From Venenivibrio stagnispumantis (GTDB taxonomy: Bacteria > Aquificota > Aquificia > Aquificales > Hydrogenothermaceae), in contig NZ_FXTX01000017.1 in the NCBI RefSeq assembly GCF_900182795.1, positions 1 to 35,699 of the forward strand: a stretch of 35,699 nucleotides of DNA, given 5' to 3'. The notes under the pieces are model-generated. The model was not told the origin of the DNA. It made no database searches and saw only the letters and a list, made by a program, of their open reading frames with translations. Below are positions 11,681-28,581 of this stretch, piece by piece. The translations under genes were made by a program, and so were the position numbers. The number at the start of each line of letters is the position of its first letter. Positions within the stretch are counted from its first letter, which is position 1.

Positions 11681-12052
11681 TCAAGATATATCAATATACG
11701 ATATTTCATCTATATCTATCCTATTAGCTAATTTTTTCCATTTTTCCTGTAAATGCTTATCTAAAAATTTGCCAACTTCATATATCCATCTGGCTACTGT
11801 TCCATAAGGTAGATTTAATACTCTTGCTATAGCAGATTTACTCATTCCTTCGCTATACATTTTTAAAGCAAGAAGTTTTACTTTTTCTGAGTGTTTATAA
11901 TATTTAGCACCTTCGTAGAAATGTCTTCCGCATTGATTACATTTATATCTTTGCCTTCCTGTATTTTTTCCAAACTTTTTACACCAATTAGAACCACATT
12001 CTGGGCAATTTATATTCTCTTGATATTTTCTTGGTCTGCCTCTCTTCTTCAT
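11681..12052 (-). pseudogene. IS1-like transposase remnant (zinc ribbon and HTH only)
   Basis: A 123-residue basic protein resembling the N-terminal part of IS1-type transposases. The zinc ribbon is CPECGSNWC then CNQCGRHF, and the helix-turn-helix is SKSAIARVLNLPYGTVARWI. In IS1-type proteins a DDE nuclease part follows, starting near an IDE motif; here the frame stops right after IDIDEISYIDIS. No remaining DDE part is seen in the 15 bases to the next gene. No ribosome binding site and no clear terminal inverted repeats were found, so it is probably a decayed fragment. It could still be made as a small DNA-binding protein. Confidence 0.72.
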
Positions 12053-12201: not shown

Positions 12202-12612
12202 TTATAAATTTCTAACTTTTAATTTTTCAACCTTTTTAAAATCCGTTTCATCAAAAGTTATTATTTCATCTACCTTATAAAATATTGACCAAGAGGCTAT
12301 AAAAGCATCTGTAAACTTTATATTTTTATCTTTATATAATTCTATGGCATATTCTATAACTTCAAATAACTCAACTTCAATACCAGGCGTATTTATAATT
12401 GCAGTTATTACCTCAGAAATTTCAATTTTACTTCTTTTATAAACTTTTTCTAATACCCAGACTATTTCAGCAATTACAAGATAAGGAACTAAAAGTTTAA
12501 TTTTTCCTTTTTCGGCTTTTTCTATTAACTCCTTTGCTTTTTTAAATTTAACTTCATCATCTATTGTGAATAATCTTATAAAAATGTTAGTATCAATGGT
12601 TACTTTTTTCAC
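12202..12612 (-). CDS. PIN-domain ribonuclease toxin (VapC-like)
   Basis: A 136-residue PIN-domain protein. The acidic active-site residues are in place: Asp7 in TIDTNIF, Glu49 in VIAEIVW, Asp102 in FTDAFIAS, and Asp121/Asp124 near ITFDETDF. VapC toxins cleave tRNA or rRNA and are held inactive by the cognate antitoxin. It starts with GTG at 12612, overlapping the antitoxin stop by 20 bases, the usual arrangement of such pairs. The module follows recJ directly on the same strand. Activity is likely from the conserved residues but untested. Confidence 0.85.
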   Translation of the reverse strand: MKKVTIDTNIFIRLFTIDDEVKFKKAKELIEKAEKGKIKLLVPYLVIAEIVWVLEKVYKRSKIEISEVITAIINTPGIEVELFEVIEYAIELYKDKNIKFTDAFIASWSIFYKVDEIITFDETDFKKVEKLKVRNL

Positions 12613-23365: not shown

Positions 23366-23650
23366 ATGAAATTTAGAAAAAAAGGAATAAAAAGAGAGCA
23401 TTCTATAATTGAAGGTTTTGAAGAACTACTTGAAGAGCTTGTAAAAGAAAAGCTTGTTTCTGCCATTATACCGGCAAGGATAAAAACATCTCCGAAGGCA
23501 GTCTCAGGCAAACCAAGAATAACCTATCAATATGACACGGAGCAAGGAGCCAAGCTATTACTGAAAAAAGGCTCCACCGTTCAGGAAGTTTTTGTAATAA
23601 CAGAAAAAAGAGAAGAATTAAAACAATATTTAGAAGAAAGATACCAATGA
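23366..23650 (+). CDS. DUF2103-like small conserved protein
   Basis: A 94-residue basic protein with KREHSIIEGFEELLEELVKE, then VSAIIPARIKTSPKA and a C-terminal strand-rich part with GAKLLLKKGSTVQEVFVIT. The pattern resembles DUF2103, often labelled a predicted metal-binding protein, but only one His and no Cys are present, so metal binding is not supported here. The family match is from memory of its pattern. It starts one base after the transaldolase stop and overlaps the Sir2 start by four bases, so the three genes are coupled. Function unknown. Confidence 0.65.
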   Translation: MKFRKKGIKREHSIIEGFEELLEELVKEKLVSAIIPARIKTSPKAVSGKPRITYQYDTEQGAKLLLKKGSTVQEVFVITEKREELKQYLEERYQ

Positions 23651-24462
23651 TGGAATTTATAGAAAAAGCAAAAGAAGCAATAAAAAAAGCTGATGTTATA
23701 CTTATAACAGCCGGTGCCGGAATGAGTGTAGATTCTGGACTGCCGGATTTTAGAGGTAAAGAAGGTTTTTGGAGAGCCTATCCTTATGCTAAGAAACTGG
23801 GAGTTTCTTTTGAAGAACTTGCAAATCCAAAATGGTTTATACAAAATCCTGAGATAGCCTGGGCATTTTATGGACATAGATATTTAATGTATAAAAATAC
23901 TCAGCCCCACGAGGGATATAAACTACTACTTAATTTAGCAAAATCTAAAAAAGGTTATTATGTATATACCTCTAATGTTGATGGACATTTTGAAAAAGCC
24001 GGATTTGAAAATATTGTGGAGATACACGGCTCAATAAATCATCTTCAATGTATTTATCCTTGCACAGATGAAATATGGGAAGCAAAAGATTTAGATATAA
24101 AAATAGATATGGAAAATTTTAGAGCTTTAACAATACCAAGATGTAAAAATTGTGGTGCAGTGGCAAGACCAAATATTTTGATGTTTGGAGATTTTAGCTG
24201 GATACCTGACAGAACAGAATATCAGGAATACAGATTTAATCTTTGGCTTGATAAAGTAGAAAATTTTGGTTATAAAATGGTAATAATAGAAATAGGTGCC
24301 GGTAAAGCTATTCCAACAATAAGATGGTTTTCTGAAAATATATCATATAAATATAATGCCACCCTTATAAGAATAAATCCAATAGATTATGAAGTTCCTT
24401 CTAAAAAAGATATATCCATTCCTATGAAAGGATTGGAAGCAATTAGATTAGTTACCGGATAA
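23647..24462 (+). CDS. Sir2-family NAD-dependent protein deacylase, atypical
   Basis: A 271-residue sirtuin-like protein. NAD-binding motifs GAGMSVDSGLPDFRG (23-37) and the catalytic His127 in EIHGSI are present. Deviations: the usual TQNID reads TSNVD (109-112), and the first zinc pair is spaced CIYPC (Cys135, Cys139) instead of CxxC, while the second is CKNC (166, 169). RPNILMFGD (174-182) is normal. The family removes acyl groups from lysines, or in some members transfers ADP-ribose. Two adjacent ATGs (23647, 23650) are possible starts. Last gene of the leuA unit. Substrate unknown. Confidence 0.85.
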   Translation: MMEFIEKAKEAIKKADVILITAGAGMSVDSGLPDFRGKEGFWRAYPYAKKLGVSFEELANPKWFIQNPEIAWAFYGHRYLMYKNTQPHEGYKLLLNLAKSKKGYYVYTSNVDGHFEKAGFENIVEIHGSINHLQCIYPCTDEIWEAKDLDIKIDMENFRALTIPRCKNCGAVARPNILMFGDFSWIPDRTEYQEYRFNLWLDKVENFGYKMVIIEIGAGKAIPTIRWFSENISYKYNATLIRINPIDYEVPSKKDISIPMKGLEAIRLVTG

Positions 24463-24598: not shown

Positions 24599-24657
24599 AT
24601 TACAAACTTGTAATCAAAATTTAAGCTTTTTGTAATTTTCAGGCATTATTATATAAA
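24599..24657 (+). promoter_or_regulatory. Promoter with repeated TTGTAAT sites
   Basis: ATTACAA-AC-TTGTAAT (24599-24614) is a perfect 7-2-7 inverted repeat. A third half-site TTGTAAT lies at 24630-24636, 22 bases (two helical turns) beyond the second. TTGTAA at 24630-24635, 16 bases and TATAAA at 24652-24657 form a plausible promoter for the secreted-protein genes, so a repressor on the sites would cover it. Confidence 0.38.
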
Positions 24658-24687
24658 TAACTAAAATTAATTTAGGAGGTATCAAAG

Positions 24688-25014
24688 ATGAAAAAGTTAG
24701 TGTTAGCGACATTGTCAGTAGCAGTATTGTCCGGTTTATCTATGGCAGACCCACAAAATCCGATGGCACAAGGGAATAATCCGATGGCACAACAAAATCA
24801 ACAATTAAAACAAGAAAAACTTCAAGAAGTAAAACAAAAGATATTATCTCGTATTCAAGAAAGAGAGCAACTTTTACAACAAAGAATGCAATTTTTAGAG
24901 CAGAAAAAAACTTGCATACAAAATGCTCAGTCTTTCCAAGATATAAAAAATTGCGATATGCAATTTAAAGAAGAAGTTAAATCTCTAAAAACACAACAAA
25001 AAACCCAAAAATAA
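24688..25014 (+). CDS. Small secreted helical protein
   Basis: A 108-residue precursor. Residues 1-20 (MKKLVLATLSVAVL, then SGLSMA) form a signal peptide with a cleavage site before DPQ, so the mature protein is periplasmic. It has a repeated NPMAQ near the N-terminus, then a long charged Gln/Glu/Lys helix (about 38-75) likely to form a coiled coil, and Cys76 and Cys89, which could make a disulfide. I do not recognise a named family; periplasmic helical chaperones of the Spy/CpxP kind look superficially similar. AGGAGGT lies eight bases upstream. The next gene has the same signal peptide and the same leader, so the two form a pair. Confidence 0.75.
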   Translation: MKKLVLATLSVAVLSGLSMADPQNPMAQGNNPMAQQNQQLKQEKLQEVKQKILSRIQEREQLLQQRMQFLEQKKTCIQNAQSFQDIKNCDMQFKEEVKSLKTQQKTQK

Positions 25015-25036
25015 TTTTATATAGGAGGTATTAGAT

Positions 25037-25279
25037 ATGAAAAAATTAGTATTAGCAACTCTCTCTGTAGCAGTATTAGGACTTGGATTTGCTTCTATTG
25101 CAGAAGAAGCACAACCACAAGCAAATCAAAACCAATCTCAAGCAACGACTTCTGCTCCTGCTAAACAAGAGAAAAAAGCTCCGGCTAAAAAAGTTCACAA
25201 ACACAAAAAACACGAGAAAACCATGAAGAAAGCAGAGAAAAAAGAAGAAAAAGCTCAAAATCAAGAACAAAAGCAATAA
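25037..25279 (+). CDS. Small secreted lysine/histidine-rich protein (Asr-like composition)
   Basis: An 80-residue precursor. The first 14 residues, MKKLVLATLSVAVL, are identical to the preceding gene's signal peptide but use different codons. Cleavage is likely after ASIA. The mature part is disordered and strongly basic: a Gln/Ala-rich stretch, then APAKKVHKHKKHEKTMKK and further Lys/Glu. The composition recalls enterobacterial acid-shock protein Asr, but low-complexity likeness does not prove homology. AGGAGGT precedes the ATG, 22 bases after the previous stop, so both are on one message, ended by the hairpin at 25290. Confidence 0.72.
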   Translation: MKKLVLATLSVAVLGLGFASIAEEAQPQANQNQSQATTSAPAKQEKKAPAKKVHKHKKHEKTMKKAEKKEEKAQNQEQKQ

Positions 25280-25289
25280 CTTCAATAAC

Positions 25290-25320
25290 CGGTAAGGCTT
25301 GCCCTTACCGACTTTTAATC
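25290..25320 (+). terminator. Hairpin terminator of the secreted-protein pair
   Basis: CGGTAAGG (25290-25297), loop CTTGC, CCTTACCG (25303-25310): a perfect eight-base stem, followed by ACTTTTAATC, a weak T-run. It starts 11 bases after the second secreted-protein gene. The remaining bases to 25427 are AT-rich with no feature that I can support. Confidence 0.6.
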
Positions 25321-25985: not shown

Positions 25986-28457
25986 CTAATTATTATAATA
26001 TTTTTTCACATAATCCACTGCATCTTTTTTTGAGGAGATTTTTCCATCTAAATAAAGTTTAAAAATTTCAGATAAGATTTTTTTATAGATAGGAGATGGT
26101 TTTATGCCTATATTTTTTAAATCTTCTCCGGAAATTATATTTTTAAACTCTTTTTCTTTTTTCAATATTTCTATGCTTTTTTCAAAAAAATTAAAATAAA
26201 TTGCAGAAAATGGTAAAATCTCAACCGGTATTGTTTTTAAAAATTTGAAAAACTCAATATTTTTTTCCGGTAAATTTTTAAATTTATCAATAAAATCAAA
26301 AATATATTTAAAATGTTTTATACTTTTATCAAAATGATATTTTTTCAAAACAAAATAAGAAACATCAAAAGGAAGGTGATACATTAAAGCCATCAGATAA
26401 TTACTGTTTTTTTCAATTTTTAAATCAAATAAAACCTTATAAATATTTATAGCTTCTGATATTTTTGCAATAATAACTTCCCTCTCTAAATTGATAAAGC
26501 AGTTTGGAAATATCTGTCTTAAAACTTTATACTCATCCATCAGATTTAAAATATACAGAACATTTTCTTCATCAAAAGTTAGATTTAGCTCTAAATTTAT
26601 TCTGCCTGTTGGTGCTTTTTGTAATAATTTTTCTTCAACAGCAAGCTTTAATAATTTTTCTGTGTTTTTTTCTAATTTATATCCAAATCTACCGGCAAAT
26701 CTTAAAGCTCTTAATATCCTGATTGGGTCTTCTATAAAGCTTGTTTGGTGTAATACTTTTATTCTTTTTTCTTTTATATCTTTCAATCCATCAAAAAAAT
26801 CTATCAAAGTTCCAAATCTATCTTCTGTTATCTCTATTGCTAATGTATTTATTGTAAAATCTCTTCTGTATAAATCTTCAAATATAGTTGCTTTTTCAAC
26901 TTTTGGATAAGCTCCTGGATATTCGTAGCTTTCTTTTCTTGCAGTAGCAAAATCAAATTTAATTCCATTTTCAAGTTTTAATGTAGCAGTCATAAATTCT
27001 TTAAAGAAATAAACGGATATTTTTCTATTTTTTACATAATCTTTTATAATTTTTTCTATATCTCCTTCAACGATAATATCTATATCTAAGCTTTTTTTAG
27101 ATAATATAAAATCCCTTACAATGCCACCTACTAAATAAACCCTATAGCCATTTTCTTTTGCTATTTTTCCGATAATTTTTAGCTCTTTATATATATCTTC
27201 CGGTAGAAAATGTTTTAATCTATCTTTTACATTTTTTTCTTTTGGTTTTTCCTTTTTTGCTAAAAATATTTTTTCTTTATCTAAGATAGGCTTATACAAT
27301 GCTTTTAATATATCTTTTTTTGATACAATACCTACCGGTTTTTGTTTTTCCAATACAGGAAATATATCCTGCTCGTATTTTGATATTTCTTTTTCAGCTT
27401 CCCACAAAGATATATTGGCATTTAGCACTATAAGATTATCATCAAATTTATTATTTATAACTATTCCTTCATACTTTCCTTCTTGATTTATTAATATTTT
27501 TATACCATCAGAATGCTTTAAGGATGTGGTAATTTCTACCGGAATAGCTATATCTTTTAATTTTTTTGTGTCTGATAGATATTTTTTTAGTAAAAATTCT
27601 AAATAATCCTGCAGTTGATTTAAGGAAAATGTTTTTATTGTAGCACTTGCGGCACTCCAATGACCACCACCACCGAAAATAGATAAAATCTGGCTTAAAT
27701 CAATCTCTTTATTGCCTGACCTTCCAATGATTGTTATTTTATTTTTCGTTTGAAGGAGAATAAATACTGCATCTACATTATTAAACTCTTCAATTAGATT
27801 TATTGCAGAAGATATATCCGGAATATATTCCGAAATATATGCAGATGCTATTAAAATGGTTTTATTATCTAAATAAAGATTGTAGCTATTTTTTAATAAT
27901 TTTTCAAAAACTTGGATTTTATCAGAATTTAATCTATTTGTTAATATATCAGATATAATTTTTAAATTAGCTCCTTTTTCAAGTAGGTAAGAAGCCATTT
28001 TTAAATCTTGCGAAGTTGTTAGATTATAACAAAATTTACCTGTATCTTCATATATTCCAAGTGCTAAGATTGTTGCATCAATATTATCTATATATACTTT
28101 TTTTCTTTTTAATTTTTCAACAATGATAGTGGTAGCAGAACCATAATTTTTAATATGATATTTTATATCTTTTTTGTATTCATCTATCGGATGATGGTCG
28201 TATATCTCTATTTTTTTATAGATTTTGCTATTTAAATTATCTACATAATGGCTATCTACAAGATAAATTTTTTCTGCATTTTTATCAAAGTGTCCGATTT
28301 TATTTTTAAATCTATCAGAAAAAATATTTAAAGTTAGCCTAACGGTTTCTGAATAAGCATTTGGTAAGACAATTTTTGCATTATATAATAAAGATAATCC
28401 ATAAGCAGAAGATAAAGCATCTAAATCTGCACCTTCTTGTAATAAAACAAGTTGCAA
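25986..28457 (-). CDS. tRNA nucleotidyltransferase with N-terminal DHH and CBS domains
   Basis: An 823-residue class II tRNA nucleotidyltransferase. Residues 1 to about 295 are a DHH phosphoesterase part (Asp68 in YLVDSH, DHH at 87-89 in YDHHP, and a DHHA1 motif FGGGGHWSAAS). About 300-395 holds a CBS pair (ending FPVLEKQKPVGIVSKKDIL). The catalytic domain starts near 430: VYLVGGIVRDFILSKKSLDIDIIVEGD with the DxD metal pair, then RRDFTINTLAIEI, then IRILRALRFAGRFGY. Aquifex divides CCA synthesis between CC-adding and A-adding enzymes and one of them has this long architecture; which activity applies here cannot be read directly. Start TTG 28457 after AGAGG. Confidence 0.9.
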   Translation of the reverse strand: MQLVLLQEGADLDALSSAYGLSLLYNAKIVLPNAYSETVRLTLNIFSDRFKNKIGHFDKNAEKIYLVDSHYVDNLNSKIYKKIEIYDHHPIDEYKKDIKYHIKNYGSATTIIVEKLKRKKVYIDNIDATILALGIYEDTGKFCYNLTTSQDLKMASYLLEKGANLKIISDILTNRLNSDKIQVFEKLLKNSYNLYLDNKTILIASAYISEYIPDISSAINLIEEFNNVDAVFILLQTKNKITIIGRSGNKEIDLSQILSIFGGGGHWSAASATIKTFSLNQLQDYLEFLLKKYLSDTKKLKDIAIPVEITTSLKHSDGIKILINQEGKYEGIVINNKFDDNLIVLNANISLWEAEKEISKYEQDIFPVLEKQKPVGIVSKKDILKALYKPILDKEKIFLAKKEKPKEKNVKDRLKHFLPEDIYKELKIIGKIAKENGYRVYLVGGIVRDFILSKKSLDIDIIVEGDIEKIIKDYVKNRKISVYFFKEFMTATLKLENGIKFDFATARKESYEYPGAYPKVEKATIFEDLYRRDFTINTLAIEITEDRFGTLIDFFDGLKDIKEKRIKVLHQTSFIEDPIRILRALRFAGRFGYKLEKNTEKLLKLAVEEKLLQKAPTGRINLELNLTFDEENVLYILNLMDEYKVLRQIFPNCFINLEREVIIAKISEAINIYKVLFDLKIEKNSNYLMALMYHLPFDVSYFVLKKYHFDKSIKHFKYIFDFIDKFKNLPEKNIEFFKFLKTIPVEILPFSAIYFNFFEKSIEILKKEKEFKNIISGEDLKNIGIKPSPIYKKILSEIFKLYLDGKISSKKDAVDYVKKYYNN

Positions 28458-28480
28458 TTTTTTAACCTCTGGTATATAAT
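28452..28480 (+). promoter_or_regulatory. Promoter of tRNA-Leu, overlapping the start of the divergent gene
   Basis: TTGCAA at 28452-28457, exactly 17 bases, TATAAT at 28475-28480, then 14 bases to the mature tRNA end at 28495. The -35 box covers the TTG start codon of the divergent nucleotidyltransferase, and the -10 lies in the near-palindrome TATAATATTAT, which also reads as TATTAT leftward. Confidence 0.62.
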
Positions 28481-28494
28481 ATTATTCTTGATTA

Positions 28495-28578
28495 GCCCAG
28501 GTGGCGAAACTGGCAGACGCGCTATCTTGAGGGGGTAGTGCCCGAGAGGGCGTGTGGGTTCGAGTCCCACCCTGGGCA
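28495..28578 (+). tRNA. tRNA-Leu, anticodon GAG
   Basis: Full class II cloverleaf. The acceptor GCCCAGG pairs with CCTGGGC, with discriminator A28578. The anticodon stem CTATC/GGTAG (one T-G pair) encloses the loop TTGAGGG with anticodon GAG, reading CUC/CUU leucine codons. The variable arm is GCCC-GAGA-GGGC and the T arm is GTGGG-TTCGAGT-CCCAC. No CCA is encoded; the next bases are TTTTTATT, so the end must be added enzymatically. The gene ends three bases before the stop codon of the convergent pmbA. Confidence 0.97.
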
Positions 28579-28581
28579 TTT

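Follow-up and report, generated by a model that had tools for sequence, protein, structure and literature searches.

A small two-gene unit of Venenivibrio stagnispumantis, genes A and B, very probably belongs to a two-component circuit of the Cus/Hpr type that drives small envelope proteins in Aquificota. The unit lies within a 35,699-nucleotide stretch of DNA analysed as a whole (the window). An earlier note on this DNA had proposed a regulated envelope module; our analysis supports that proposal, and the likely regulator is a CusR/HprR-type system encoded on another contig (C11) of the same genome (G000, 1.56 Mb). The unit has an operator and promoter at 24599-24652, the genes A and B in that order, and a terminator at 25290-25310, arranged as follows.

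24599-24614, + strand: 7-2-7 palindrome ATTACAA-AC-TTGTAAT, a Cus/Hpr/Lci-type box forming the outer part of the operator
24619-24625, + strand: degenerate middle half-site in direct orientation, ATTTAAG, 11 bp on from the palindrome's inner half
24630-24636, + strand: TTGTAAT, the third half-site, also direct, 22 bp on from the palindrome's inner half
24647-24652, + strand: -10 hexamer TATTAT, without a good -35
24674-24682, + strand: Shine-Dalgarno sequence AGGAGGTAT of gene A
24688-25014, + strand: gene A, 108 aa; a signal peptide, then a helical hairpin in which a CX12C pair, C76 and C89, flanks the turn
25023-25031, + strand: Shine-Dalgarno sequence AGGAGGTAT of gene B
25037-25279, + strand: gene B, 80 aa; a signal peptide followed by a tail rich in Lys, Glu, Ala and Gln that has a few His
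25290-25310, + strand: intrinsic terminator of the A-B unit, an 8-bp stem CGGTAAGG-CTTGC-CCTTACCG with a T-rich tail

The two halves of the palindrome (24599-24605, inverted, and 24608-24614) and the two direct elements behind it make an operator of four half-sites with a pitch of 11 bp, and the -10 hexamer follows 10 bp past the last of them. Three of these half-sites, two as a 7-2-7 inverted repeat and the third 22 bp on, had been recognised in the earlier note together with a plausible promoter, and all are present, the promoter as the -10 hexamer listed above; the middle half-site, the terminator and a paralogous operon elsewhere in the genome had been overlooked. With regard to the repetition of TTGTAAT that the earlier note reported, it is the arrangement that carries weight (the palindrome with a third half-site 22 bp on has one match in the window against 0.01 expected, up to three mismatches being allowed), whereas the 7-mer alone is not enriched (15 occurrences against 13.4 expected). 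The middle half-site aligns in relatives with ATTTAAT, TTTTAAT, TTGTAAT and ATGTAAT, and is intact in two of them. A scan for the sigma-70 consensus found no promoter at the -10 hexamer, as would be expected of an activated promoter. The leader said to be shared by the two genes is indeed there, since AGGAGGTAT precedes both and occurs twice in the window where 0.28 occurrences would be expected; it is, however, nothing other than a strong Shine-Dalgarno sequence. The terminator folds with -12 kcal/mol (z -2.9). Upstream of gene B there is a Sir2-type deacetylase gene both in the window (23647-24462) and in isolate SKW169 (L063:68-574), hinting that the location of the operon is old.

The operator has close counterparts in proteobacteria. 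The inverted repeat ATTACAA-N2-TTGTAAT is exact at 24599-24614, and the palindrome as a whole is identical to the published element of LciR in Legionella, ATTACAAnnTTGTAAT, which that regulator uses together with two short conserved sequences placed at a precise distance before the -10 (PMC6989116). The LciR-controlled Legionella promoter is also activated by E. coli CusR (PMC6989116), and the CusR/HprR box upstream of E. coli hiuH is CATTACAAAATTGTAATG (PMC9302797). Short elements at a fixed distance before the -10 are likewise found in the 11 Aquificota promoters that we tabulated, as half-sites at +11 and +22; all of these promoters have the -10 exactly 10 bp past the third half-site and 39 bp, start to start, from the palindrome's inner half. 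For cusC and hiuH of E. coli and for pcoE and silE, which are plasmid genes, this distance is 40 bp, with a recognisable half-site at +11. The unit shares with the CusRS and HprRS targets of E. coli (cusC and hiuH-msrPQ) the 7-2-7 palindrome, the half-site 11 bp on and a -10 at 39-40 bp, and differs in having kept a third direct half-site (TGTAAT) 22 bp on. The LciRS-lciE system of Legionella, which has the same palindrome and two short elements before the -10, is also comparable in that this Cus-type system has a sensor domain of its own and a target not concerned with transport, although its target protein is unrelated to ours.

The genome scan for ATTACAA-N2-TTGTAAT that the earlier note had called for returned two exact copies, and both precede an operon containing a gene B. 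The second, on contig C11, extends over the final codons of a gene for a histidine kinase, itself placed after the gene of an OmpR-type regulator, and behind it come a lipoprotein gene and a paralogue of gene B that is 68% identical to the copy in the window. Four further palindromes with one mismatch (on C2, C20, C21 and C26) were discarded as chance matches, being located within genes or at their edges and lacking downstream half-sites, and a weaker match to the extended site at C1:107140 faces no gene. The Ala/Gln/Pro-rich lipoprotein (MKKLVLASALVLSSAVLFSCQKKEEQPA...) has three paralogues in this genome (G000:C4:32215, L111; G000:C13:29615, L114; and that on C11, L113), only the last of which sits behind the operator.

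When the site is extended to the palindrome plus the middle and third half-sites, that is T(T/G)TAA and then TGTAAT at the same spacing, it is found at 14 places in 9 of the 112 genomes of the order, against one place for the reversed control. Besides V. stagnispumantis these genomes are eight relatives from two other genera of Hydrogenothermaceae, those with names being Sulfurihydrogenibium and other Hydrogenothermaceae, in agreement with the earlier note's assignment to Aquificales, and relatives of gene B are present in every one of the nine. Genomes of the Sulfurihydrogenibium group have the regulator first, followed by the kinase, the site at the kinase stop, the lipoprotein and gene B; in V. 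stagnispumantis and in six genomes of that group (g10) the site reaches into the kinase stop or lies directly against it. In two genomes of another genus (g6) the kinase lies elsewhere, yet gene B is still preceded by the site, and one of these (G078) carries three clean 11-bp direct repeats, TGTAATCTTTTTGTAATCTTTCTGTAAT. A full-length orthologue of the C11 kinase (E<1e-100) occurs in 9 of the 41 genomes of the family, and these are exactly the nine that have the site; this is a strong association, although the three genera may together form a single clade and the nine genomes should not be counted as independent events. Matches to the 38-bp pattern outside Aquificota, in Clostridia, Spirochaetes and others, are probably due to chance in AT-rich genomes. 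One genome of the Sulfurihydrogenibium group (G102) has two near-identical, perfect four-half-site operators, at C2:36494-36531 (L103) and C7:6481-6518 (L106), with the same repeat, ending GGTAGCGCGCGCAC, behind each and a transposase-like ORF near one of them, and these two are possibly carried by a mobile element.

Among curated families the C11 regulator (226 aa) is closest to the heavy-metal regulators of TIGR01387, at 262 bits against a cut-off of 279 and so below the threshold for membership, followed by HprR and CusR; the kinase (about 460 aa) has TIGR01386 as its best family, again short of the cut-off (210 against 293 bits). The DNA-binding domain of the regulator is 42-47% identical to those of CusR, HprR, PcoR and SilR, against 27-35% for PhoB, RstA, CpxR, QseB, BasR and two Aquificota regulators, and it has in common with the Cus group, including the E. 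coli proteins, the recognition-region motif NFD-x3-N-x2-DV. A tree groups it with CusR, PcoR and HprR, with weak to modest support. We consider it improbable that the site is instead read by another member of the OmpR family, for instance one resembling PhoB or WalR, the kinase being close to it only incidentally. Tandem TGTAAT repeats at 11 bp are compatible with OmpR-type regulators generally, of which at least two more are encoded in the genome; these score far lower against the Cus family, however, the runners-up reaching 150 and 107 bits and leaving the C11 protein as the only strong match, and the perfect agreement in distribution between site and kinase, together with their direct adjacency, favours the C11 system.

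The data show the operator and how it is conserved, the paralogous operon and the kinase co-occurrence described above; in proposing how the C11 system would act on the A-B operon, we infer the pairing of regulator and site, the activation, the signal and the functions of the proteins. Once phosphorylated, the regulator would occupy the palindrome and the half-sites that run at 11-bp pitch towards the -10, and would bring RNA polymerase there to a promoter without a -35. It would activate in this way the exported proteins A and B, and would also switch on the operon beside its own genes, that is, the lipoprotein and the paralogue of gene B. Such a circuit would be of the copper, silver or peroxide kind in its construction, while its outputs would be proteins of envelope stress instead of sponges or pumps for metal. 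We regard the chances of this non-metal, envelope-stress output as about even, in distinction from the regulatory part of the proposal, which is much the firmer.

The likeness to metal-responsive systems makes it necessary to ask whether the circuit answers to copper, silver or another soft metal after all, with A and B acting as periplasmic metal sponges like SilE and PcoE. The circuit matches pcoRS-pcoE and silRS-silE in its box and the geometry of that box, in the family of its regulator and in the order of its genes (regulator, kinase, box and small exported protein, the box lying just past the kinase gene), and SilE is a disordered His/Met sponge for silver (PMC5008109). The mature part of gene B in the window contains three His and one Met, and some relatives of gene A in another family have His/Met-rich tails (e.g., HKKMWHKHMWHKPM). 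But conserved His/Met motifs, as in SilE and PcoE, are absent from mature gene B, three of the ten family members (G100, G102 and G079) having no His, Met or Cys there at all, and the lipoprotein of the paralogous operon has none apart from its lipid-bearing Cys; PcoE and SilE are rich in His and Met where these proteins are not, and homology is not suggested. The sensor region of the kinase, moreover, has no invariant His, Met or Cys across its nine orthologues, in contrast to the conserved periplasmic ligands of heavy-metal kinases, to the E. coli sensors, and to LciS, which keeps the His and Cys needed for copper sensing. Nor was an efflux gene found beside the sites inspected, and the targets are small exported proteins where those of CusRS and HprRS are efflux pumps or methionine-sulfoxide repair. 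Because the sensor lacks invariant ligands and mature gene B can lack all three residues, a metal sponge is not supported, and we think a true metal response unlikely.

Gene B itself is a charged, probably disordered protein rich in Lys, Glu and Ala, a composition typical of its family. The earlier note had compared its tail with Asr, which is also a short, exported, Ala/Lys-rich protein, but the likeness is confined to composition: with the Asr model NF033636 it reaches 22 bits where the cut-off is 50, and Asr is under the control of other systems.

Gene A belongs to a family, defined here for Aquificota, of helical hairpins with a signal peptide and an invariant CX12C motif (C-x3-[AS]-x8-C), both Cys being kept in all 13 aligned proteins. 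AlphaFold2 places two long helices at 32-78 and 83-107 (mean pLDDT 79) and puts one Cys on each side of the turn between them; on this model gene A would be a periplasmic hairpin pinned by a disulfide. The only other strong relative within Hydrogenothermaceae is in G102; it has two CX12C units and also stands behind a box. Gene A alone, as a query of the genome collection, gave no matches, which can be put down to its being short and divergent; a structure search returned nothing significant (best E 2.5), and a profile of gene A found no convincing match among solved structures. Assignments to Metal_resist (PF13801, 17.6 bits against a cut-off of 29.2) and to ZraP (11.9 against 200) were rejected. 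In another family of bacteria (f2), A-type genes overlap or directly precede the gene of a different OmpR-type regulator (L024, L026 and L027, in G029, G045 and G040); these relatives have four Cys and the adjoining regulator is best matched by CtrA/PmrA-like models, so that a link between CX12C proteins and two-component systems is recurrent.

As the earlier note observed, the proteins A and B begin with the same 14 residues, MKKLVLATLSVAVL, while 7 of the 14 codons (8 of 42 nucleotides) differ, all of them synonymously. This had been read as an export signal kept under selection while the cargo behind it was replaced. In its favour, the 11 residues running beyond MKK would agree in about 1 in 10^8 random signal peptides of this kind, by a crude estimate (signal-peptide statistics for the whole genome are approximate only), and six further genes of the genome begin MKKLVLA or MKKLILA. 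Gene A, moreover, matches B at 14 of 14 of these positions, against at most 9 of 14 for its own family. Yet the mature part of gene B is conserved alongside its signal across genera (mean pairwise identity 0.63, with 0.74 for the signal), gene A belongs to a separate family that has signals of its own, the paralogous operon opens with a gene whose signal is of another kind, that of a lipoprotein, and a series of variable cargoes behind the 14 residues was not found. A cassette of swapped cargoes behind a conserved signal is therefore very improbable, and of the earlier expectation of one signal before varied mature parts only the match between A and B survives. Residues 15-22 of gene A (SGLSMADP) resemble those of its own family (SGVVLAQP), and only the first 14 look, by sequence comparison, as if they had been borrowed from B; an old partial exchange of 5' ends and convergence on a favoured signal are both possible.

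Similar signals in neighbouring genes were seen in two other settings. Gene-A-type and gene-B-type genes adjoin in another family (L028, L040 and L043, in G057 and G054), where the signal peptides are alike in their second half (FAGxxFAQQ), a second case of this kind. In V. stagnispumantis, a cluster of small exported proteins at about 4700-6560 of contig C30 (L013, L118) combines MKKLIL/MRKLII signals and a common C-terminal motif, approximately NSxETxRLIxxCEEK, with diverged middles, and comes closer than the A-B pair to the earlier idea of shared ends and a changed middle. Elsewhere in the window, an ORF at 11681-12052 on the minus strand with a zinc ribbon and helix-turn-helix looks, from its translation by eye, like a fragment of an IS1-type transposase, and is adjoined by a PIN-domain-like ORF at 12202-12612, also recognised by eye. 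A tRNA-Leu (gag) occupies 28495-28578; the opposite-strand ORF at 28421-28579 was rejected as a gene, being read-through of this tRNA.

We found no earlier report in the literature of such an operator and two-component system in Aquificota. Both are of a known kind; here they have unusual outputs and a sensor without the expected metal ligands. At about even odds, Hydrogenothermaceae possess a Cus/Hpr-type system that has kept its operator code and geometry while changing both its input, through a sensor with no conserved metal ligands, and its output, now a lipoprotein, a charged disordered protein and a disulfide hairpin; it would serve metal-independent envelope stress in thermophiles, with the CX12C family of hairpins recurrently attached to two-component systems. 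The Cus/Hpr operator code known from proteobacteria reaches Aquificota, with its spacing to the -10 kept within one base pair. The regulon is small and clean, with two or three targets, and offers a way to the signal of a Cus-type sensor that has no conserved metal ligands, while two uncharacterised families of small exported proteins gain a defined regulatory context.
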